Below, in pieces: positions 2,463 through 10,046 of a DNA stretch of 64,000 bases (positions within the stretch are counted from its first letter, which is position 1; each line of letters opens with the position of its first letter). Under the pieces are notes generated by a model, which saw only the letters and a program-made list of their open reading frames with translations, was not told the DNA's origin and did no database searches. This DNA is from Allacma fusca (taxonomy: Eukaryota > Arthropoda > Collembola > Symphypleona > Sminthuridae): contig OX359247.1 in assembly GCA_947179485.1 (NCBI GenBank), positions 2,447,060 through 2,511,059 on the forward strand, in the 5' to 3' direction. A program made the translations under genes and the position numbers.

Positions 2463-4094
2463 CAGTGCATCGCATGGGTACAAAAATGCTGTACCTGGAC
2501 CTGAACCTGGACCCAAACAGTGGGTACCGGCAAACATAGTACCCAAACCCGTACCTGAATAAAAGTACCCATTAAATAAATGTTGGTACCTGGACCTGAC
2601 TATTTTGCAAGTAGTGCGTACCTGTACCTGAATTTTACCCGTACCCAAAATATACCCAATATCTGGACCTGTACCTGAAAAATTTTCCTAAGTACCTGTA
2701 CCCAATCAGGTACTTTAAAAACAATTACTGTAAACGATTCAACATGATTTACATCACAGCAATTACAAGCTAGGAAAAATTCTGCCTCTTAATTTTTGCA
2801 ATACTATACATCTTAATGGAACTATAACTTCTATTTTCTATACCATCTGACGTATTAAATATTCCACTTCTAGGACATCCTCCATAACCACAATATCATT
2901 TAACGACCTTTTTACTGAATCTCAAGTGGAATTTGTAATTACACGTACTTATTGCTGGCACGTTGTGCTATGCCAACCATCTCTATTACATACAGTGCTC
3001 GGCACGGGTATGGGTAATACTCGGGTAAACGGGTATGGGTACGGGTATGGGTACTACCCGGGTACGGATTTTGTGTATACCCGAACAATTCCGGGTACTA
3101 CCCGGGTACACTTTGGTCGGCTCAAAATTTCGGGTACGGATACGGGTATGGGTACGGGTACAAGGATTTCAAAATGGGTATATACCCACCGGGTACGGGT
3201 ATAATGGTGTCATTTACCCGTACCCGCGACCATTGTACCCGAGTATTTGGATATGTTGAGATTTGAGACATTTTGATGAATTTTATGAAAATAATGGAAC
3301 TTCCGTTGGAAAATTCTGTCGGTATTTTTAGTAATTCTGAATGCATATAGCTTATTGTTAATACCCTTTTAACCTTACAACATGCAGTAACTGTATTTCA
3401 GACTGTGTTGCTAAAATATATATTTATATCTATAATATAGCTATTTAATTGTTTTTATGGAAATAGGTTTTAGGAAGAATAATTAATAAACAGACGAGGA
3501 ATAATATCAAAATAGAAGTGGAGAATAGGATTCAACGAAATTTTATACAAAACGTCTTCATAATTTAGTAATTTGTTACTAATTACATAAATAGTCTGAT
3601 TGACATGTATGCACATGATGATTAGCTACAATGAATACAATTTAAAAATTAGAGTTCCGATGAGTTGGACGGCAAGATATTTTTTGTAATTGGTAGTTGA
3701 TTAGGAAAAGGCGGATATTTGTAACAAGATATTAATGAGTTACATGTACACAGAGCTACTGAGGTGAGAAAATTAATGTAAAAGGCCGAATAAATCAAGA
3801 AGTGAAAAATCGAGTCGCCAAGTCCCAAGCCAAAAATGCATGTATATATGGACTGGGTGCTATAAAATACTTCGCCCATCAGCCCATAAACAATCAAATG
3901 GGGATAATTTTACTTCTAATCAAAAACGCGTATAGTTTTCTACTCTTCAATAAAAATATATAATGTCAAATACCTCTCTAGCTAGTCAAAATTACACACT
4001 TAGGTGTCATACATTATTACGTATAACGTACTATGTATTACATTAAAACAAATCTGGATAAAGTATCCGGGTACGAGTACGACACTGAGATACC

Positions 4095-4180
4095 AGTAGA
4101 GTAAGTAATGGTGGCCAGCCCGGCCTGAATTGACAGACCCCGTCTAATCAGTGGTGAAGGGGTCTGAATTGACCAGGGCC
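4095..4180 (+). repeat. Left terminal inverted repeat of the Polinton-like element
   Basis: About 86 bp match the inverse of 9336-9421 with about two mismatches. The repeat contains a short internal duplication, with CTGAATTGAC occurring twice. The near identity of the two ends contrasts with the broken genes inside. Confidence 0.9.
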
Positions 4181-4198
4181 TTTTAACACTGCAGTGAA

Positions 4199-4428
4199 AA
4201 TAGAGATAATCCCTTTCACTTTGACTAATCCTTTAGAAATACAGGTAATTCCTTTCACTTTGGTTATTCCCTTTAAAACAGAAATAACCCCATTTAATTT
4301 TGTTAATCCTTCAAACATATGGGTAATCTCCTCCGCTTTGACTAATCTCTTAAAAGTAGAGGTAATCCCCTCCACTTTGACTAATCTCTTAAAGGTAGAG
4401 GTTATCCCCTTCACCTTTATGTTTAGCG
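4199..4428. repeat. 39-bp minisatellite next to the left TIR
   Basis: About six imperfect copies of a 39-bp unit follow the left TIR directly. Because 39 is a multiple of three, both strands stay open and would encode 13-residue repeats: on plus of the kind VIPFTLTNPL, on minus of the kind GITSTFKRLVK. I treat this as a subterminal tandem array rather than a gene, since no start context or family match supports translation. Confidence 0.75.
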
Positions 4429-4449
4429 ATTAAAGTAAGTATCAAGCAA

Positions 4450-4530
4450 TGCCACCCCAAGTGGCAGAGTAGATAGAGTTTCGAAAACTTAGAATTGGGC
4501 AATAGATTCAATCCGAGCTAGACACACATA
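4450..4530 (+). other. tRNA-like pol III promoter boxes (candidate SINE or tRNA relic)
   Basis: TGGCAGAGTAGATAGAG resembles an internal A box. AGATTCAATCCGAG, about 40 bp downstream, resembles a B box, at tRNA-like spacing. No good acceptor stem or cloverleaf is visible, so this is at most a tRNA-derived relic. Confidence 0.25.
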
Positions 4531-4818
4531 CACGTAAAATGATGTATGATTTGTTTACAGGTTATGGTCATCCCATCCAATAAGGTAAGAATAGAAAAAA
4601 CAAAAAAAGTTTGTTTCCCCCTATAAAGGGGTTTGTTTTGCTACCGCATATTATCATTCCACACAGTTTCACTTGTAGGAGTACAACTGAGAGAAAATTC
4701 CTAAAATTTCATTCCAATTGTAAGTGTCACCCAGGATTTTGATTTTCTCAAAATTTCCAATGAGAAAAAGGAAATCATTGCTAAAAAATCAGAGAAATTC
4801 TGGGCTGCAAAAGTGGCG

Positions 4819-5487
4819 ATGTATAACTTCACCTTCAGGGTAGCGAAAATTATGGTGAATTACAGCTGTGGAGTCGATTGGCGTCTTTTATTGAAACCTT
4901 GCATGGAAATTCTCTGTGGTTGTGACGACCTAGCCTATCTCAAGCTGGAATGGGATCGGATTTGCTTGAAATTCGAAGCTGCACTTCCGGAAACGAAACA
5001 AGGAATGGATTTTAAAGAATACACAGGCACCTCGAAAATACACCCTGGTATAGACACCGACACCGGTATGGAAGTTAATGTAAGTAACCCGGGATACCTG
5101 GATATAGTTCCGAGGCTATCATCCATTGCGATGAGTCCTATGAAGAAAAAATTATCCCCTTATGTCACTCCCACGGCGTTGGCTGAAGGTTATTACTTCA
5201 TGAAATCAGATGAAATAACATGTGTCTACTGTGATGGAAAGCCCGGATGAGTTTCCGAGGATCGTCAGATTAAATATAGAAAAGGATGTTTCAAGAACTG
5301 TCCACTGGAATTAGCTTATTTCTTTGGCGATGATGACAGACGACCGAAATGGAAAAGAAGGAGGACTGAGTCATTGCAGAAGGAATTTTCCGCGATACGT
5401 GAAAACAAACCGGGAGACATAGAGGCTATATTTCGTCTTCAGTACTTGGATAGAGTCATTGAAAGTAGAACTCACAGATATATTTAA
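4819..5487 (+). pseudogene. BIR-domain-like (IAP-type) gene broken by an in-frame TGA
   Basis: The frame starts at ATG 4819 and runs to TAA 5485-5487 (about 222 codons), interrupted by a single TGA at 5248-5250. Around residues 120-160 it resembles a baculovirus-IAP repeat: TALAEGYYF, then a CVYC zinc pair, then a KGCFKNC segment where the last zinc cysteine is expected. The stop falls where BIR domains have a conserved aromatic residue, and the usual zinc-binding histidine is not evident. BIR proteins of IAP type block apoptosis in hosts of DNA viruses. A structural or unrelated role is equally possible for this copy. The N-terminal 110 residues are unrecognised, and the C-terminal part is basic (WKRRR). 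It lies first in the gene row of the Polinton-like element. The BIR call is moderate. Confidence 0.5.
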
Positions 5488-5588
5488 CTTCAATTTGGAT
5501 GAATAAATCGGATCTCATTTATGTCTTTATAATTTGATAAATCTAGCATGAATTGTAATATTTATTCATTCAGGTTTTGTAATTCATC

Positions 5589-7072
5589 ATGGCAGATTTC
5601 ACAATCACTCTTCTCAGCGATGCCTCATAAAATTTTTTTTCCAGAAAACACTTTCAAATTTTCGAAATAAAATGGCTACAAGAATAGATTTGGAGTCAAA
5701 GGAGTTCGAGGTGGCTATGACCACTTGCACATATACGTCAATAAACGTATTCATTCGTGAGGGTGAAGAAATAGGTGTGGCTTCATTGAGTTCTGAACGT
5801 GGAGAGTTATTGTCACTATCCTTACTAAATTTAAGTCAAAATAAATGGGTTGATGGTAATACATTGAAATGCAAGTTATTTGCACCGTACAATTTTTCTG
5901 ATGAGTTTGATTTTTGCTTCTATCTCTCTAATGTGACCAGGGATTTGTATGAAATAAATCCAAGATCATACTTAGAGGTAACTAAAGAAAACGGCAATAT
6001 GAAAATTCCATATTCATTTGAATTAACAGATCGTGTGAAAAAAGTATTTGGAATCCATGAGGGCTTCGTAGACTCAAAAGTGATTGAAAAACAGATTATA
6101 TTAAAACATAATCAATCCGTGCTATGTGGGAAAGATGATATTATTACTTGCCCATTACTAGTTCAGTTGAATCAACCAACTGATGTGTTAAAAGTGAAGA
6201 AAGACGGACAAGTTATCGAGGATAAAATATATACTTCAGGAATGGGTAGTATAAATCCATCAATTGCAGGATTAGAGTACATCCTATCAGTCAAACCGTA
6301 CATCACCCTCACAAGTGTTGAGAACATGCATGCGAAAATTTTACAAGTGACTGAGGCTGACGAGATTCTAAGCTATTCTTACTCGGATTACATCATCAAA
6401 AATTATGGGGACATAGCCAAAGGTAAAGTCATGGAAGATGTTACTACATCTGGAAGGAATGTAAAAATAGTGTCAGCTCTGGAGAAAATTGATTTAAAGT
6501 ACTTCCTAGTTTCTGGGGACAGGATTGGCTCAAAGATCAAAGAACCCGAGATATTTCTTACCACAAATGAAGATATTACATCATTCGATGGACTTATGAA
6601 AATGCTTTCTGAAGAGTTTGACTTTGATTGGAATATCATCTCTGGGAAAATGTATCTTATCTATAATAAATATTCCAAATTAAATGACTTTGAATTTTGC
6701 CCTACTGTCAAAGCATACTTGGGATTTCTGAATGGAAGTGCAGCCGCCTCTTCTAGAGTGCAATTATCCAAAATTAGGGGTCGCCATAAGCTTCATAAAG
6801 GATTTGGGAATGACTTACTATTTGTTTACTGTGACATCGTTGAAAACCAATATGTAGGAGATACATATGTCCCACTTCTGAGATGTATACCGCAAACGTA
6901 TAATAATGGAAAGGCTTACGAACACGAGTTTTACAACCCAACATATCTTCCGCTAAAATCCAGTTCCTTTGAAAGTGTTCGTGTATATATAATGAATGAA
7001 TCTGGAAATCCACCGCCATTTGAATTTGGAGACTTCAAGTGTACACTACACTTCCGTGAGCGGAGATACTAA
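5589..7072 (+). pseudogene. Virus-like structural protein (466-residue frame) with N-terminal frameshift
   Basis: The long intact frame is 5672-7072 (ATG to TAA, 466 residues). An upstream ATG at 5589 opens a 13-codon frame, ends at TAA 5628-5630 and contains TLLSDAS, the typical beginning of a protein family that accompanies F54H12.2-like genes in invertebrate genomes. The long frame is open upstream of its own ATG and continues that family's N-terminal pattern. I infer that the original start was 5589 and that a frameshift at about 5624-5632 (beside a T8 run) separates the two parts. The C-terminus has the family ending PPFEFGDFKCTLHFRERRY. A capsid-associated or minor structural role is inferred from the neighbours and is not shown by motif. 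No transmembrane segment is seen. The gene ends 19 bp before the next ATG. Confidence 0.55.
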
Positions 7073-7091
7073 AAAACAACATACGAATAGA

Positions 7092-7493
7092 ATGACTAAA
7101 ACGTTTCAGTGTTCCGATATGGAGAGCAAGTTTTACAGAATTCATAATCCTCAATATGGACAAGGTATACAATATGGTGGTGGTGGAGGACTTTTATTTT
7201 ATAGGGGATCTCAAGTTTGTCAAAAAGGTGCTGGTCTGGGCTCCTTCTTTGGGTCAATTGCTCGAAGGCTTATACCTTTCGCTTCTAAATACCTTCTCCC
7301 CCATGCTAAAACAGCCTTAAAAAATGTTGCACATGATGTGTTGGAGGGTGGTCGCCCCCTTAGCGAGTCCCTTAAGGATCGTGGTCTTCATGCTCTTAAA
7401 GCAGTTGGTCAGGATGTAATGTCTCAGTCTGGTTCTGGATTTGGAAGAAAACGTAAGGCGGAAGATCATGGTGGTAACCTTTACCCATATTAG
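7092..7493 (+). CDS. Small Gly-rich amphipathic protein, capsid-core/membrane-active type
   Basis: The frame runs from ATG 7092 (alternative ATG 7119, MESKFYRIHNPQYG) to TAG 7491-7493, 133 or 124 residues. A glycine run (GGGGG) is followed by GLGSFFGSIARRLIPFASKY, then an alternating hydrophobic and basic stretch, and a basic end (GRKRK). This Gly-rich start, amphipathic helix and basic tail recall the small core or membrane-active proteins (adenovirus pX/VI-like) found between capsid genes of Polinton-like viruses. That analogy is inference. Past the stop the same frame meets a second stop (TAA 7500-7502), then codes a Lys/Arg-rich stretch to an A7 run. After this a second frame (7535-7657) stays strongly basic up to the next gene. 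The protein therefore probably once had a longer basic tail, now cut by two stops and a frameshift. Confidence 0.5.
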   Translation: MTKTFQCSDMESKFYRIHNPQYGQGIQYGGGGGLLFYRGSQVCQKGAGLGSFFGSIARRLIPFASKYLLPHAKTALKNVAHDVLEGGRPLSESLKDRGLHALKAVGQDVMSQSGSGFGRKRKAEDHGGNLYPY

Positions 7494-7534
7494 AAAATCT
7501 AACGTGCACCTAAAATTGGACGACGGAAGAAAAA

Positions 7535-7657
7535 AAGGCTTCTAAGAAACGAGGAAAGAAAAACGGACGTGGAATACTGAAGCTGAATATTTCCAAGAAG
7601 ATTAAGAAGAGTGCTCCTAAAAGAAAAAAAGGAAATTCTAGAAATATTTTTTCATAA
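7535..7657 (+). pseudogene. Detached basic tail of the upstream small protein
   Basis: This frame has no ATG. It encodes a Lys/Arg-rich segment (KASKKRGKKNGRG, later KKIKKSAPKRKKGN) ending in NIFS and a TAA that overlaps the next gene's ATG. It sits one frame away from the Lys/Arg codons at 7503-7536, across an A7 run. It looks like the nucleic-acid-binding C-terminus of the preceding protein, put out of frame. Confidence 0.4.
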
Positions 7658-8679
7658 TGGCCGGGCATCATTTTTTGAGGAGTGAATTCGATATTTTTAA
7701 TCGTGAAGGTTATGATATGTCAATTCAAACAACTCAAACTTGTGATGTATTCCCAAATTGCCCTTTATCTGAGACTGCTGTACCATTAACATTCAATGTT
7801 AATAGTACAGAGGCCGATTATATTGACCTAAGCAAGACTCGTCTGTATTTACGCATGAGAATTTTAGATTCGGATGGTAATGCCAATGCTGCAAATATAG
7901 TTGTTGCTCCAGTCAACAATATTTTACACTCTGTATTTTCTCAATGTTCAGTGTATTTAAATGAAACATTGATATCACCTACAAATACTTATTATCCATA
8001 TCGATCAATGATTGAGCGCATGTTACTATTTTCGAAGGAGTACAATGAGACTCAATCACAATGTGCGGGTTATTTCAAAGATAATAACCCTCCAAACGTT
8101 GATGCTAATGTGACATCATCCTATTATCAACGATGGACATTGAGTCGGGGTAGTAAAGTTTTCGAGGTAATAGGAAGACCCCATGCATACTTTTTCTGCC
8201 AGCCGGACTTCTTACCACCGGGAGTAGACCTTAAAGTAGTATTTCATCGTTCCACTGAAGACTTCGCTGTTCATACTGATTTGGCACTTGTTAACCAGCC
8301 TCATTACAAACTGCAAATAGTTGAGGCTAAGCTACAAATTCTCAGCCATAAAGTCATTCCAGCTGCCGCTCTGGATCATATTCGATTATGGGAGTCTGGA
8401 GATGTTGCGAATCTGTATTTAAACAAGGTTGATATCAAGAGCTTTCCATTGCCGATTGGGACATTGACACGGATAGAGGAGGGTGTATTCAAAGGTGGGC
8501 AACTTCCTGATCGATTGGTACTTGCAATTGTACCGAGTACTAACTTAAATGGAACTTGCACGAGTAATCCTTTTGTATTTAGCGACTTTGGACTTACCCA
8601 CATTAATGTTTCTGTTAATAGAGACACTTGCGAGTCTTATCCACTAGGTGGAACAAATGGCTCAGGCTTCGCTGGATAA
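7657..8679 (+). CDS. F54H12.2-like protein, candidate capsid protein, C-terminally truncated
   Basis: The 340-residue frame runs from ATG 7657 to TAA 8677-8679. The N-terminal pattern (SEFDIFNREGYD, TQTCDVFPNC, then DYIDLSKTRLYLRMRI) matches the widespread invertebrate family annotated as 'uncharacterized protein F54H12.2-like', whose genes lie in Polinton-like or virus-derived elements. Later segments fit too (PHAYFFCQPDFLPPGVDLKV; IRLWESGDVANLY). A beta-rich capsid role is inferred from context and needs a profile search. The protein stops soon after GLTHINVSVN, where I expect the family to continue for roughly another 100 residues. The following frames do not restore that part, so this copy looks truncated. 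It is the most confidently recognised virus-like gene of the element. Confidence 0.6.
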   Translation: MAGHHFLRSEFDIFNREGYDMSIQTTQTCDVFPNCPLSETAVPLTFNVNSTEADYIDLSKTRLYLRMRILDSDGNANAANIVVAPVNNILHSVFSQCSVYLNETLISPTNTYYPYRSMIERMLLFSKEYNETQSQCAGYFKDNNPPNVDANVTSSYYQRWTLSRGSKVFEVIGRPHAYFFCQPDFLPPGVDLKVVFHRSTEDFAVHTDLALVNQPHYKLQIVEAKLQILSHKVIPAAALDHIRLWESGDVANLYLNKVDIKSFPLPIGTLTRIEEGVFKGGQLPDRLVLAIVPSTNLNGTCTSNPFVFSDFGLTHINVSVNRDTCESYPLGGTNGSGFAG

Positions 8680-8767
8680 ACAGTCTATGGAAATGGATTC
8701 AACTATTAGTGGTAAGAATAAGTTATTGCTTCCCCGTAGGCGATTACCGCGGCGCGCGCGCACGTAG
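8657..8767 (+). CDS. Small basic ORF overlapping the capsid-like gene end
   Basis: The frame runs from ATG 8657 to TAG 8765-8767 (36 residues), overlapping the previous stop by 23 bp in another frame. It begins MAQASLDKQSMEMDST and ends in an Arg-rich stretch (LLLPRRRLPRRART). A CG-repeat (GCGGCGCGCGCGCAC, about 8749-8763) lies at its end. One frame away, 8770-9086 stays open and encodes a Pro/Ser/Thr-rich stretch with KRKATTPLKD. The two may be halves of one gene split at the CG run. No function is recognised. Confidence 0.25.
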   Translation: MAQASLDKQSMEMDSTISGKNKLLLPRRRLPRRART

Positions 8768-9335
8768 CTGTAACGGTTTGGCCGCAAAAAGGGAGGGGAC
8801 GCAGGAAGTCCCAAACCTTACCCCATATCTGCCACTTCCTTCGCCCCTAGCTAATGTGGTGCATGAGGAAACTGGCTTTGATGTGTGTGGTACTTGGGAT
8901 TGGCTTAAAGTTACATCCATGAACATAAAACCATCATATTCCCCATCATCTTCGTCTACAGGATCAACACCTGAAATATCCACTGATGATTCCACCAAGC
9001 CAATGATTGACCCAAACGTGAATAAAAGAAAGGCGACTACACCTCTCAAAGATGGTATTTATTTATTTATAGCATTTATTGAATAGTTTTTCACCACCAT
9101 CACAGCGGGTGTTGCATGTACTACTTAAATTTATGATGTTTTCCGACTAATCCTACTATACTGATTCCGAATCCATGATCAGAATTCGGAAATTCACTCG
9201 GGAAAATAAATTAGGTTACAAAAGGATTATTAGGGATTTAAACCAAGGATTAGTCCCTGGTGAAGTGAATGTAGCGACGTAGACGGAACGGATTAAGTGA
9301 AGGGGATTATTATTATTATTAATACAATGGTGAAA
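8768..9335 (+). other. 3' part of the Polinton-like element, no recognised gene
   Basis: An open frame to 9086 (low complexity, Ser/Thr/Pro-rich, e.g. SPSSSSTGSTPE) may be the rest of the small gene before it. From 9087 to the right TIR I see only AT-rich sequence with an ATT run. Confidence 0.3.
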
Positions 9336-9421
9336 GGGCCTGGTCAATTCAGGCCCCTTCACCACTGATTAGACGGGGTCTGTCAATTCAGGCCGGGCTG
9401 GCCACCATTACTTACTCTACT
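9336..9421 (-). repeat. Right terminal inverted repeat of the Polinton-like element
   Basis: This is the inverted partner of 4095-4180. It ends CTTACTCTACT immediately before the right-hand GATACC target duplication. Confidence 0.9.
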
Positions 9422-10046
9422 GATACCCGAGTATGGGTACTATTTTCGAGTATTTTCGGGTACGGGTACAATACGGGTACAGGTACATGGATTGAGATAA
9501 CATTGCGGGTACGGGTCCGAAAAATTTGTACCCGGATACTGGGGTATTTGTACGGGTATAGATACAAGTTATTGAAATACCCGCACTTCGGGTACGGATA
9601 CAGGTACGGGTACCGATTTTTTGTACCCGTGCCGAGCACTGATTACATAACCATTTGCGTTTTCAAAAATTACGACGCACTCCTGGAAACACGCTGAATA
9701 TCAAAAGAAACCTGTAGGTCGGAGAGAGAGTCACATACTACACTAGATGCCTCGTAAGATGGATTTCTGTTTGTTAAAGTACCCACATTTTCGTGTATTA
9801 ATTTGTCAGGTTCAGGTATATTGGAAGCTTGTACCTGTTCCTTTCAGGTACAACCAAAAAATTCCAAGTTTGTACCTGCACCCAACACCTGGTTTTGTAC
9901 CCAAAATTTGGGTACATATAGCTAGTTTCCATAAAGTACCTATTCATGTTGGGTACTTAAACGGAGTACCCATTTCGGACCTGGACCTGTACCTATACCC
10001 AAATACTCAGTTACTACCAGGACCCATGCGATGCACTGCTATACAG

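Follow-up and report, generated by a model that had tools for sequence, protein, structure and literature searches.

A probable deletion derivative of a Polinton in the genome of Allacma fusca, and apparent exchange of the penton-position gene among its longer relatives

Introduction

Can a virus-like transposon be reduced to little more than its capsid genes and still persist as a mobile unit? This question is raised by an element of 5,327 bp in the collembolan Allacma fusca, which occupies positions 4095-9421 of the window, the 64,000-nucleotide stretch of DNA analysed here (GenBank assembly GCA_947179485.1, contig OX359247.1, positions 2,447,060 to 2,511,059 of the forward strand). A first-pass annotation, made from the letters of the window, described the element as a compact derivative of a Polinton with structural genes only, and proposed that it might be a satellite mobilised by a full element or belong to a distinct family of small virus-like transposons. 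Our analysis indicates, with a probability that we put at about 0.94, that it is a one-off, non-autonomous deletion derivative of a Polinton and a decaying relic, whose capsid-only content is due to deletion. The element itself would then be ordinary, a shortened Polinton copy with left-over capsid genes that are not selected, and it serves as a warning not to infer compact virus-like transposons from a single copy. Greater importance attaches to its relatives, since among them a gene in the position of the penton gene appears to be reassorted against the gene of the major capsid protein (MCP) within one genome.

Results and discussion

Ends of the element and longer copies with the same ends

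The limits of the element were read directly from the window. It lies between two perfect copies of the hexanucleotide GATACC (4089-4094 and 9422-9427, without strand), which form the target-site duplication (TSD), and its termini are AG and CT, as had been described. The terminal inverted repeats (TIRs), initially given as 86 bp long, are real and match at 84 of 86 positions, but their true length is 83 bp with a single mismatch. The left arm (4095-4177, + strand), which begins with AG, was placed by repeat comparison and by TIR matches in the genome, and the right arm (9339-9421, - strand), which terminates with CT, by repeat comparison. We prefer 83 over 86 bp because the differences between the arms past position 83 are mostly at sites common to both sister copies described below. 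The mismatch at position 69 has the identical two states in the sister copy on C9, so that no private change separates the two arms of the window element. A chance origin of the TIRs is excluded, because exact inverted repeats reach 69 bp in this region but no more than 18 bp in 100 order-1 Markov sequences. With AG...CT ends, TIRs and a 6-bp TSD, the element carries the hallmarks of Polinton/Maverick elements.

A search for the TIR in the host genome (392.7 Mb in 91 contigs, including the window) gave 16 matches, the window included, with all 16 candidates scored. Four facing pairs were found, namely the window element (5.3 kb), C8:52817036-52832007 (15.0 kb), C9:46177335-46197309 (20.0 kb) and C1:3250081-3263348 (13.3 kb), and eight matches are unpaired; the two of these eight that were compared (L007 and L008) resemble, near the TIR, only the left end and the shared repeat. 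The TIR pairs bounding the C8 and C9 copies are 97-99% identical to those of the window, and both copies have 6-bp TSDs of their own (ATGTAT and CCTGTA, respectively). The C9 copy contains frames for a 494-codon penton-position protein, a small basic protein, a 444-codon MCP, a protease-like protein, an integrase, an ATPase-like protein and a polymerase of 1,507 codons, in which we recognise what we take to be DNA-polymerase motifs. Its MCP, penton-position, protease-like, integrase, ATPase-like and polymerase B (PolB) frames are open, and the integrase frame is 98% identical to that of a copy at C8:63.69. In the latter, Pfam matches were obtained for rve (39.4 bits, cut-off 32.6) and a Pox_A32-type ATPase (23.1 bits, cut-off 22.8), together with a match to Peptidase_C5, the adenovirus protease, just under the cut-off (21.1 against 21.3 bits) and a sub-threshold BIR match. 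A direct Pfam scan of two polymerase frames found no polymerase family; we regard this as a miss, because a genome-wide search with PF03175 gave a 60.8-bit match within the PolB frame of the C8:63.69 copy and none in 14 control genomes. In the 15.0-kb C8 copy, the polymerase is divided among several frames. The 20.0-kb C9 copy thus holds polymerase and integrase between the same TIRs, a situation in which the first-pass annotation itself saw reason to regard the short element as a one-off deletion.

The facing pair at C1:3250081-3263348 (L014, L015) was considered as a second short form and rejected: it is a near-perfect palindrome beside an assembly gap, with 5.9-kb arms that are 99.8% identical and a gap of 200 N directly adjoining one arm. 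Either the assembly is at fault here, or two copies of a polymerase end are joined head to head. Additional PF03175 frames of about 1,270-1,312 codons were seen in the host genome and may belong to other polymerase-bearing elements.

Deletion junctions

The window element is collinear with the matching parts of the C9 copy save at three sharp junctions, which were located by alignment to that copy and have no strand. At junction 1 (8650-8656), about 4.27 kb are missing relative to C9:46185763/46190032, which removes the end of the MCP gene, the adenovirus-type protease, the integrase and a 197-codon gene. Junction 2 (8848-8849) lacks about 56 bp, and junction 3 (9053-9054) about 6.45 kb with the packaging ATPase and PolB. 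Alignment with a full copy identified 8656-9054 (+ strand) as a remnant of the region in which full copies have an ORF (open reading frame) of 190-192 residues. In total, about two thirds of the element length was lost. Protease and ATPase are present in relatives, and a polymerase frame, of which the window element has none, is found in the 20.0-kb copy and in related copies. The integrase gene falls in the deleted part and is retained in sister copies; none of the 124 match rows for the rve integrase is at the window locus. As a compact derivative of a Polinton, the element was therefore correctly recognised, judging from its ends and from collinear longer copies with polymerase and integrase.

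Most probably, a Polinton of about 15 kb would have been inserted by its own integrase, leaving the 6-bp duplication, and internal DNA would subsequently have been lost in three deletion events with both ends kept. As the junctions share 0-2 bases, one of them (junction 1) with a few bases of uncertain origin, repair may have proceeded by end-joining or aborted gap repair. The parts still present are the structural half on the left, with BIR-like, penton-position, small basic and truncated MCP genes, one gene remnant and the right end.

When the junction region (window 8600-9150, 551 bp) was compared with the host genome, 40 of 73 first-look candidates were scored. Among the resulting 72 matches, the window matched end to end, and the other 71 crossed any junction by at most 4 bases. 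The sequences on either side of each junction consequently occur as ordinary DNA elsewhere and, among the scored matches, are brought together in the window only, and no further copies of the same compact architecture were present among these matches.

State of the remaining genes

All four remaining genes are damaged. The first-pass annotation had seen three virus-like genes between the TIRs; capsid-type genes are indeed located there, but a fourth, BIR-like gene had been overlooked. This IAP-type gene (4819-5250, + strand) is prematurely stopped and was recognised by a weak match to PF00653 (E = 0.094, under the Pfam cut-off). The region has a second open piece at 5254-5487; of the two, searched separately, only the first was matched. 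Relative to the homologous 293-codon ORF of another copy, whose BIR match is also under the cut-off (E = 0.017), the window gene has an internal stop. Possibly, the gene encodes an inhibitor of apoptosis. A BIR-like gene with a sub-threshold Pfam match was also observed near the left end of related Polintons (L016:3918-4796).

The 466-residue ORF (5672-7072, + strand) represents, by comparison with open copies and by gene order, the penton-position (PX-like) protein. The ORF is present as annotated, but without the 28 N-terminal residues of the open copies: the 28 preceding codons are out of frame in the window and conserved in seven aligned open copies. In L010 and L034, the gene is broken at its N-terminal region as in the window. 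The small Gly-rich/basic protein (7092-7493, + strand) is likewise present, but comparison with the 220-residue ORF of L016 revealed that stops precede the lysine-rich tail, and the basic C-terminus is lost. By homology to the 440-residue MCP, the 340-residue ORF (7657-8679, + strand) consists of about 330 MCP residues followed by about 10 unrelated ones; its C-terminal quarter is deleted, the cut being at a deletion junction. Lacking polymerase, integrase, ATPase and protease genes and with damage in its four remaining genes, the element is most probably a non-autonomous, decaying relic.

Neither the window MCP nor the full-length MCP matched any Pfam family. Of four relatives scanned against Pfam, P0008 (46% identity) matched PF21738 (DJR-like_dom) with a score above the cut-off and P0006 (47%) with one below it, and P0010 and P0016 had no match. 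By homology only, the window MCP is thus a putative double jelly-roll major capsid protein in truncated form. A Pfam scan of the window ORFs yielded nothing useful beyond the weak BIR match, and no credible match was obtained when sequences or profiles of the MCP, penton-position protein and polymerase were compared with PDB sequences. For the penton-position protein, with no credible match in Pfam or the PDB, the location one gene upstream of the MCP fits PX, as the PX/penton gene of Polintons is placed one gene upstream of the MCP (PMC4028283).

Among nine MCPs compared, the nearest to that of the window is at C8:52826576, with differences at 22 of 990 sites. After polarisation with three other copies over residues 1-330, 21 of these differences were assigned to either branch, 17 of them non-synonymous and 4 synonymous; the remaining one is synonymous and unpolarised. 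A ratio of 17:4 is as expected without selection (P = 1.0), and the MCP has changed at a neutral ratio since it diverged from its closest sister. For the branch of the window taken by itself, the ratio is 7:1, which with such small numbers is not strong. The ratio of non-synonymous to synonymous divergence (dN/dS) of the window MCP was 0.10-0.11 relative to L016 and five like class A copies, 0.15 relative to the C9 copy and 0.31 relative to L034. The low values in comparison with other copies indicate that selection acted in circulating lineages.

Alternative explanations

A satellite would be a deleted, replicating genome of 5.3 kb that was copied and integrated, perhaps also packaged, by the proteins of a full Polinton, making the present insertion its own. 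Retention of both TIRs and of a perfect TSD is in line with such a history, the genome contains a same-TIR copy with open polymerase and integrase frames, and truncated mavirus-like elements of 5-15 kb with TIRs are known from a protist (PMC8547959). However, the element is a single copy among the scored matches, broken capsid genes would be of no help to a satellite, the MCP ratio is neutral, and a deletion in place yields the same picture. As no positive support was found for mobilisation in trans before the present insertion either, we consider this part of the first-pass proposal improbable. Both a satellite and a family of capsid-only transposons would be expected to have intact capsid genes under selection, in contrast to the truncated MCP, the 17:4 ratio and the broken frames. 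That the element represents a distinct family of small capsid-only transposons, as capsid-type genes between proper ends within 5.3 kb might suggest, can be practically dismissed, given near-identical ends and genes in longer copies with polymerase and integrase, collinearity with a longer copy apart from the deletions, no second copy among the 40 of 73 scored junction-region candidates, and integrase within 12 kb downstream at most of the MCP loci surveyed below.

Two observations weigh against a one-off decaying relic. The 466-residue ORF has no internal stop, its dN/dS relative to seven class A copies is 0.19-0.27, and the gene seems to show no decay except at its N-terminus. Furthermore, with 40 of 73 junction-region candidates scored, a second full copy, which should rank among the best matches, is not strictly excluded.

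Other MCP loci

A search with the MCP in the host genome returned 121 match rows in several subfamilies, with some loci split in two. Many scores are identical and the bursts therefore look recent. Our survey covered the 30 matches with at least 91% identity that span residues 1-330, leaving out four partial rows of at least 91% and all more distant ones. Downstream genes were scored from 36 of 124 integrase rows, 33 of 72 junction-region rows and 13 of 56 polymerase rows, the latter from a search in which 56 of 909 candidates were scored. An integrase match within 12 kb downstream was present at 24 of the 30 loci, the region of the 190-192-codon gene at 26 (not counting the remnant in the window), and a polymerase at no fewer than 12, to which direct comparison added L032, L009 and L035. 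The six loci without an integrase match are the window, C1:41125667, C1:8985028, C1:8976182, C1:53801526 and C10:57100250. Two of these, C1:41125667 and C1:8985028, are truncated, each at a point other than that of the window, and C1:53801526 (L035) has polymerase sequence. Remnants of the structural half thus appear to recur, and those seen are probably separate accidents.

Relation to known systems

The window element resembles Polinton/Maverick elements (polintoviruses) in its AG...CT TIRs, its 6-bp TSD and the location of MCP and penton-position genes one gene apart, and its longer relatives carry PolB, rve integrase, ATPase and an adenovirus-type protease. It differs by its length of 5.3 kb instead of 15-20 kb, the deletion of these four genes and the breakage of those that remain. 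Truncated endogenous mavirus-like elements (EMALEs) of Cafeteria burkhardae are similarly shortened (5-15 kb) with TIRs still flanking; these are protist virophages for which the authors of PMC8547959 inferred regeneration of TIRs after truncation, whereas the deletions in the window element are internal and its original ends are kept. Internal loss from a longer autonomous element is shared with the Ds-del type of the maize Ac/Ds system (PMC3260210). Ds moves with the help of Ac, in contrast to the window element, a single virus-like copy with no sign of later movement.

Exchange of the penton-position gene

The relative at C1:8984491-8989000 shares 88-97% identity with the window element outside the penton-position ORF, except in the alignment windows at either extreme, where values are lower; across this ORF, identity is 50-76% with about 270 gap positions. 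Exchange can be distinguished in part from rapid protein evolution by synonymous divergence (pS), which was compared between the penton-position and MCP genes in the 28 pairs formed by eight copies. The pair A (C8:63.69) and X (C10:45.93) shows a pS of 0.143 in the penton-position gene and 0.757 in the MCP gene, and the copies labelled C1 and C2 within the class C comparison have 0.146 and 0.509, respectively. For A and B (C12:22.02), whose MCPs are identical along 330 residues, the values are 0.690 and 0.130. The other pairs are saturated in both genes or differ moderately in pS. A misaligned variable centre could inflate pS in the A-B pair, where the penton-position gene has the larger value, but it cannot explain a lower value, and exchange is therefore firm for A-X and C1-C2. 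Between A and X, the stretch of raised identity extends from about 4920 to about 6390 in L016 coordinates, and the putatively exchanged block matches the limits of the ORF (4917-6398). Between A and B, the unlike stretch extends over the upstream BIR-like gene, so that this exchange, if it is one, was wider. In these three comparisons the penton-position gene appears to move between Polinton lineages, in conflict with MCP divergence.

Among the 30 surveyed MCP loci, the penton-position gene is of class A in 15 and of class B in 12, with none in the match list for 3; a 31st row (MCP identity 81%) is also class A. This tally drew on 32 of 106 rows of penton-position gene matches. In the ten pairs within class C, the penton-position gene exceeds the MCP gene in dN/dS by a factor of about two to ten (0.36 vs 0.04 for C4-C5, 0.38 vs 0.09 for C3-C4 and 0.26 vs 0.13 for C1-C2). 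The ends of the protein are conserved and its centre is hypervariable, with the variable stretch at about residues 160-330 of 494. No homologue was found at E <= 0.001 in the protein database, neither with the single 466-residue sequence (6,385 candidates) nor with an alignment of 12 sequences (A3; best 8,000 candidates), and 10 pattern matches in viral contigs included no relative. The gene was also observed at L016:4917-6398, L047, L048 and L049.

Tentatively, and with somewhat less than even confidence, we suggest that full-length Polintons in this genome act like recombining viruses and exchange the penton-position gene between lineages otherwise far apart. The penton-position protein reads as a predicted vertex protein with a variable, exposed centre. 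If the full-length copies do recombine like viruses, the host might drive selection on it as a vertex or attachment protein, and genomes from more than one Polinton lineage might replicate within the same cells. The exchange may have taken place while genomes replicated together in a cell, or integrated copies may have undergone gene conversion, the duller alternative to co-replication. Under the recombining-virus reading, the 466-residue ORF of the window would be one damaged allele of an exchanged gene. Recombination and gene exchange (PMC8547959) as well as hypervariable genome regions (PMC10945749) were reported for endogenous virophages. Penton exchange in animal Polintons was not reported in the literature searched, in which subscription journals were thinly covered, and this is weak evidence of novelty. 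Reassortment of this gene is relevant to the unanswered question of particle formation and co-infection by animal Polintons.

Further features

Subterminal repeats with a spacing of 39 bp (repeat family D1; 4197-4417, + strand) adjoin the left TIR of the window element, and the sister copies have similar ones. Between its BIR-like and penton-position genes, the C9 copy has additional DNA, absent from the window, with a frame which we take to be a nested transposase. Elsewhere, the window has frames that presumably encode cuticle-like and ZAD-type zinc-finger proteins, as would suit an arthropod. Just outside the right end of the element, at 9455-9630, the flank is rich in short repeats of the CGGGTACGGGTAC type.

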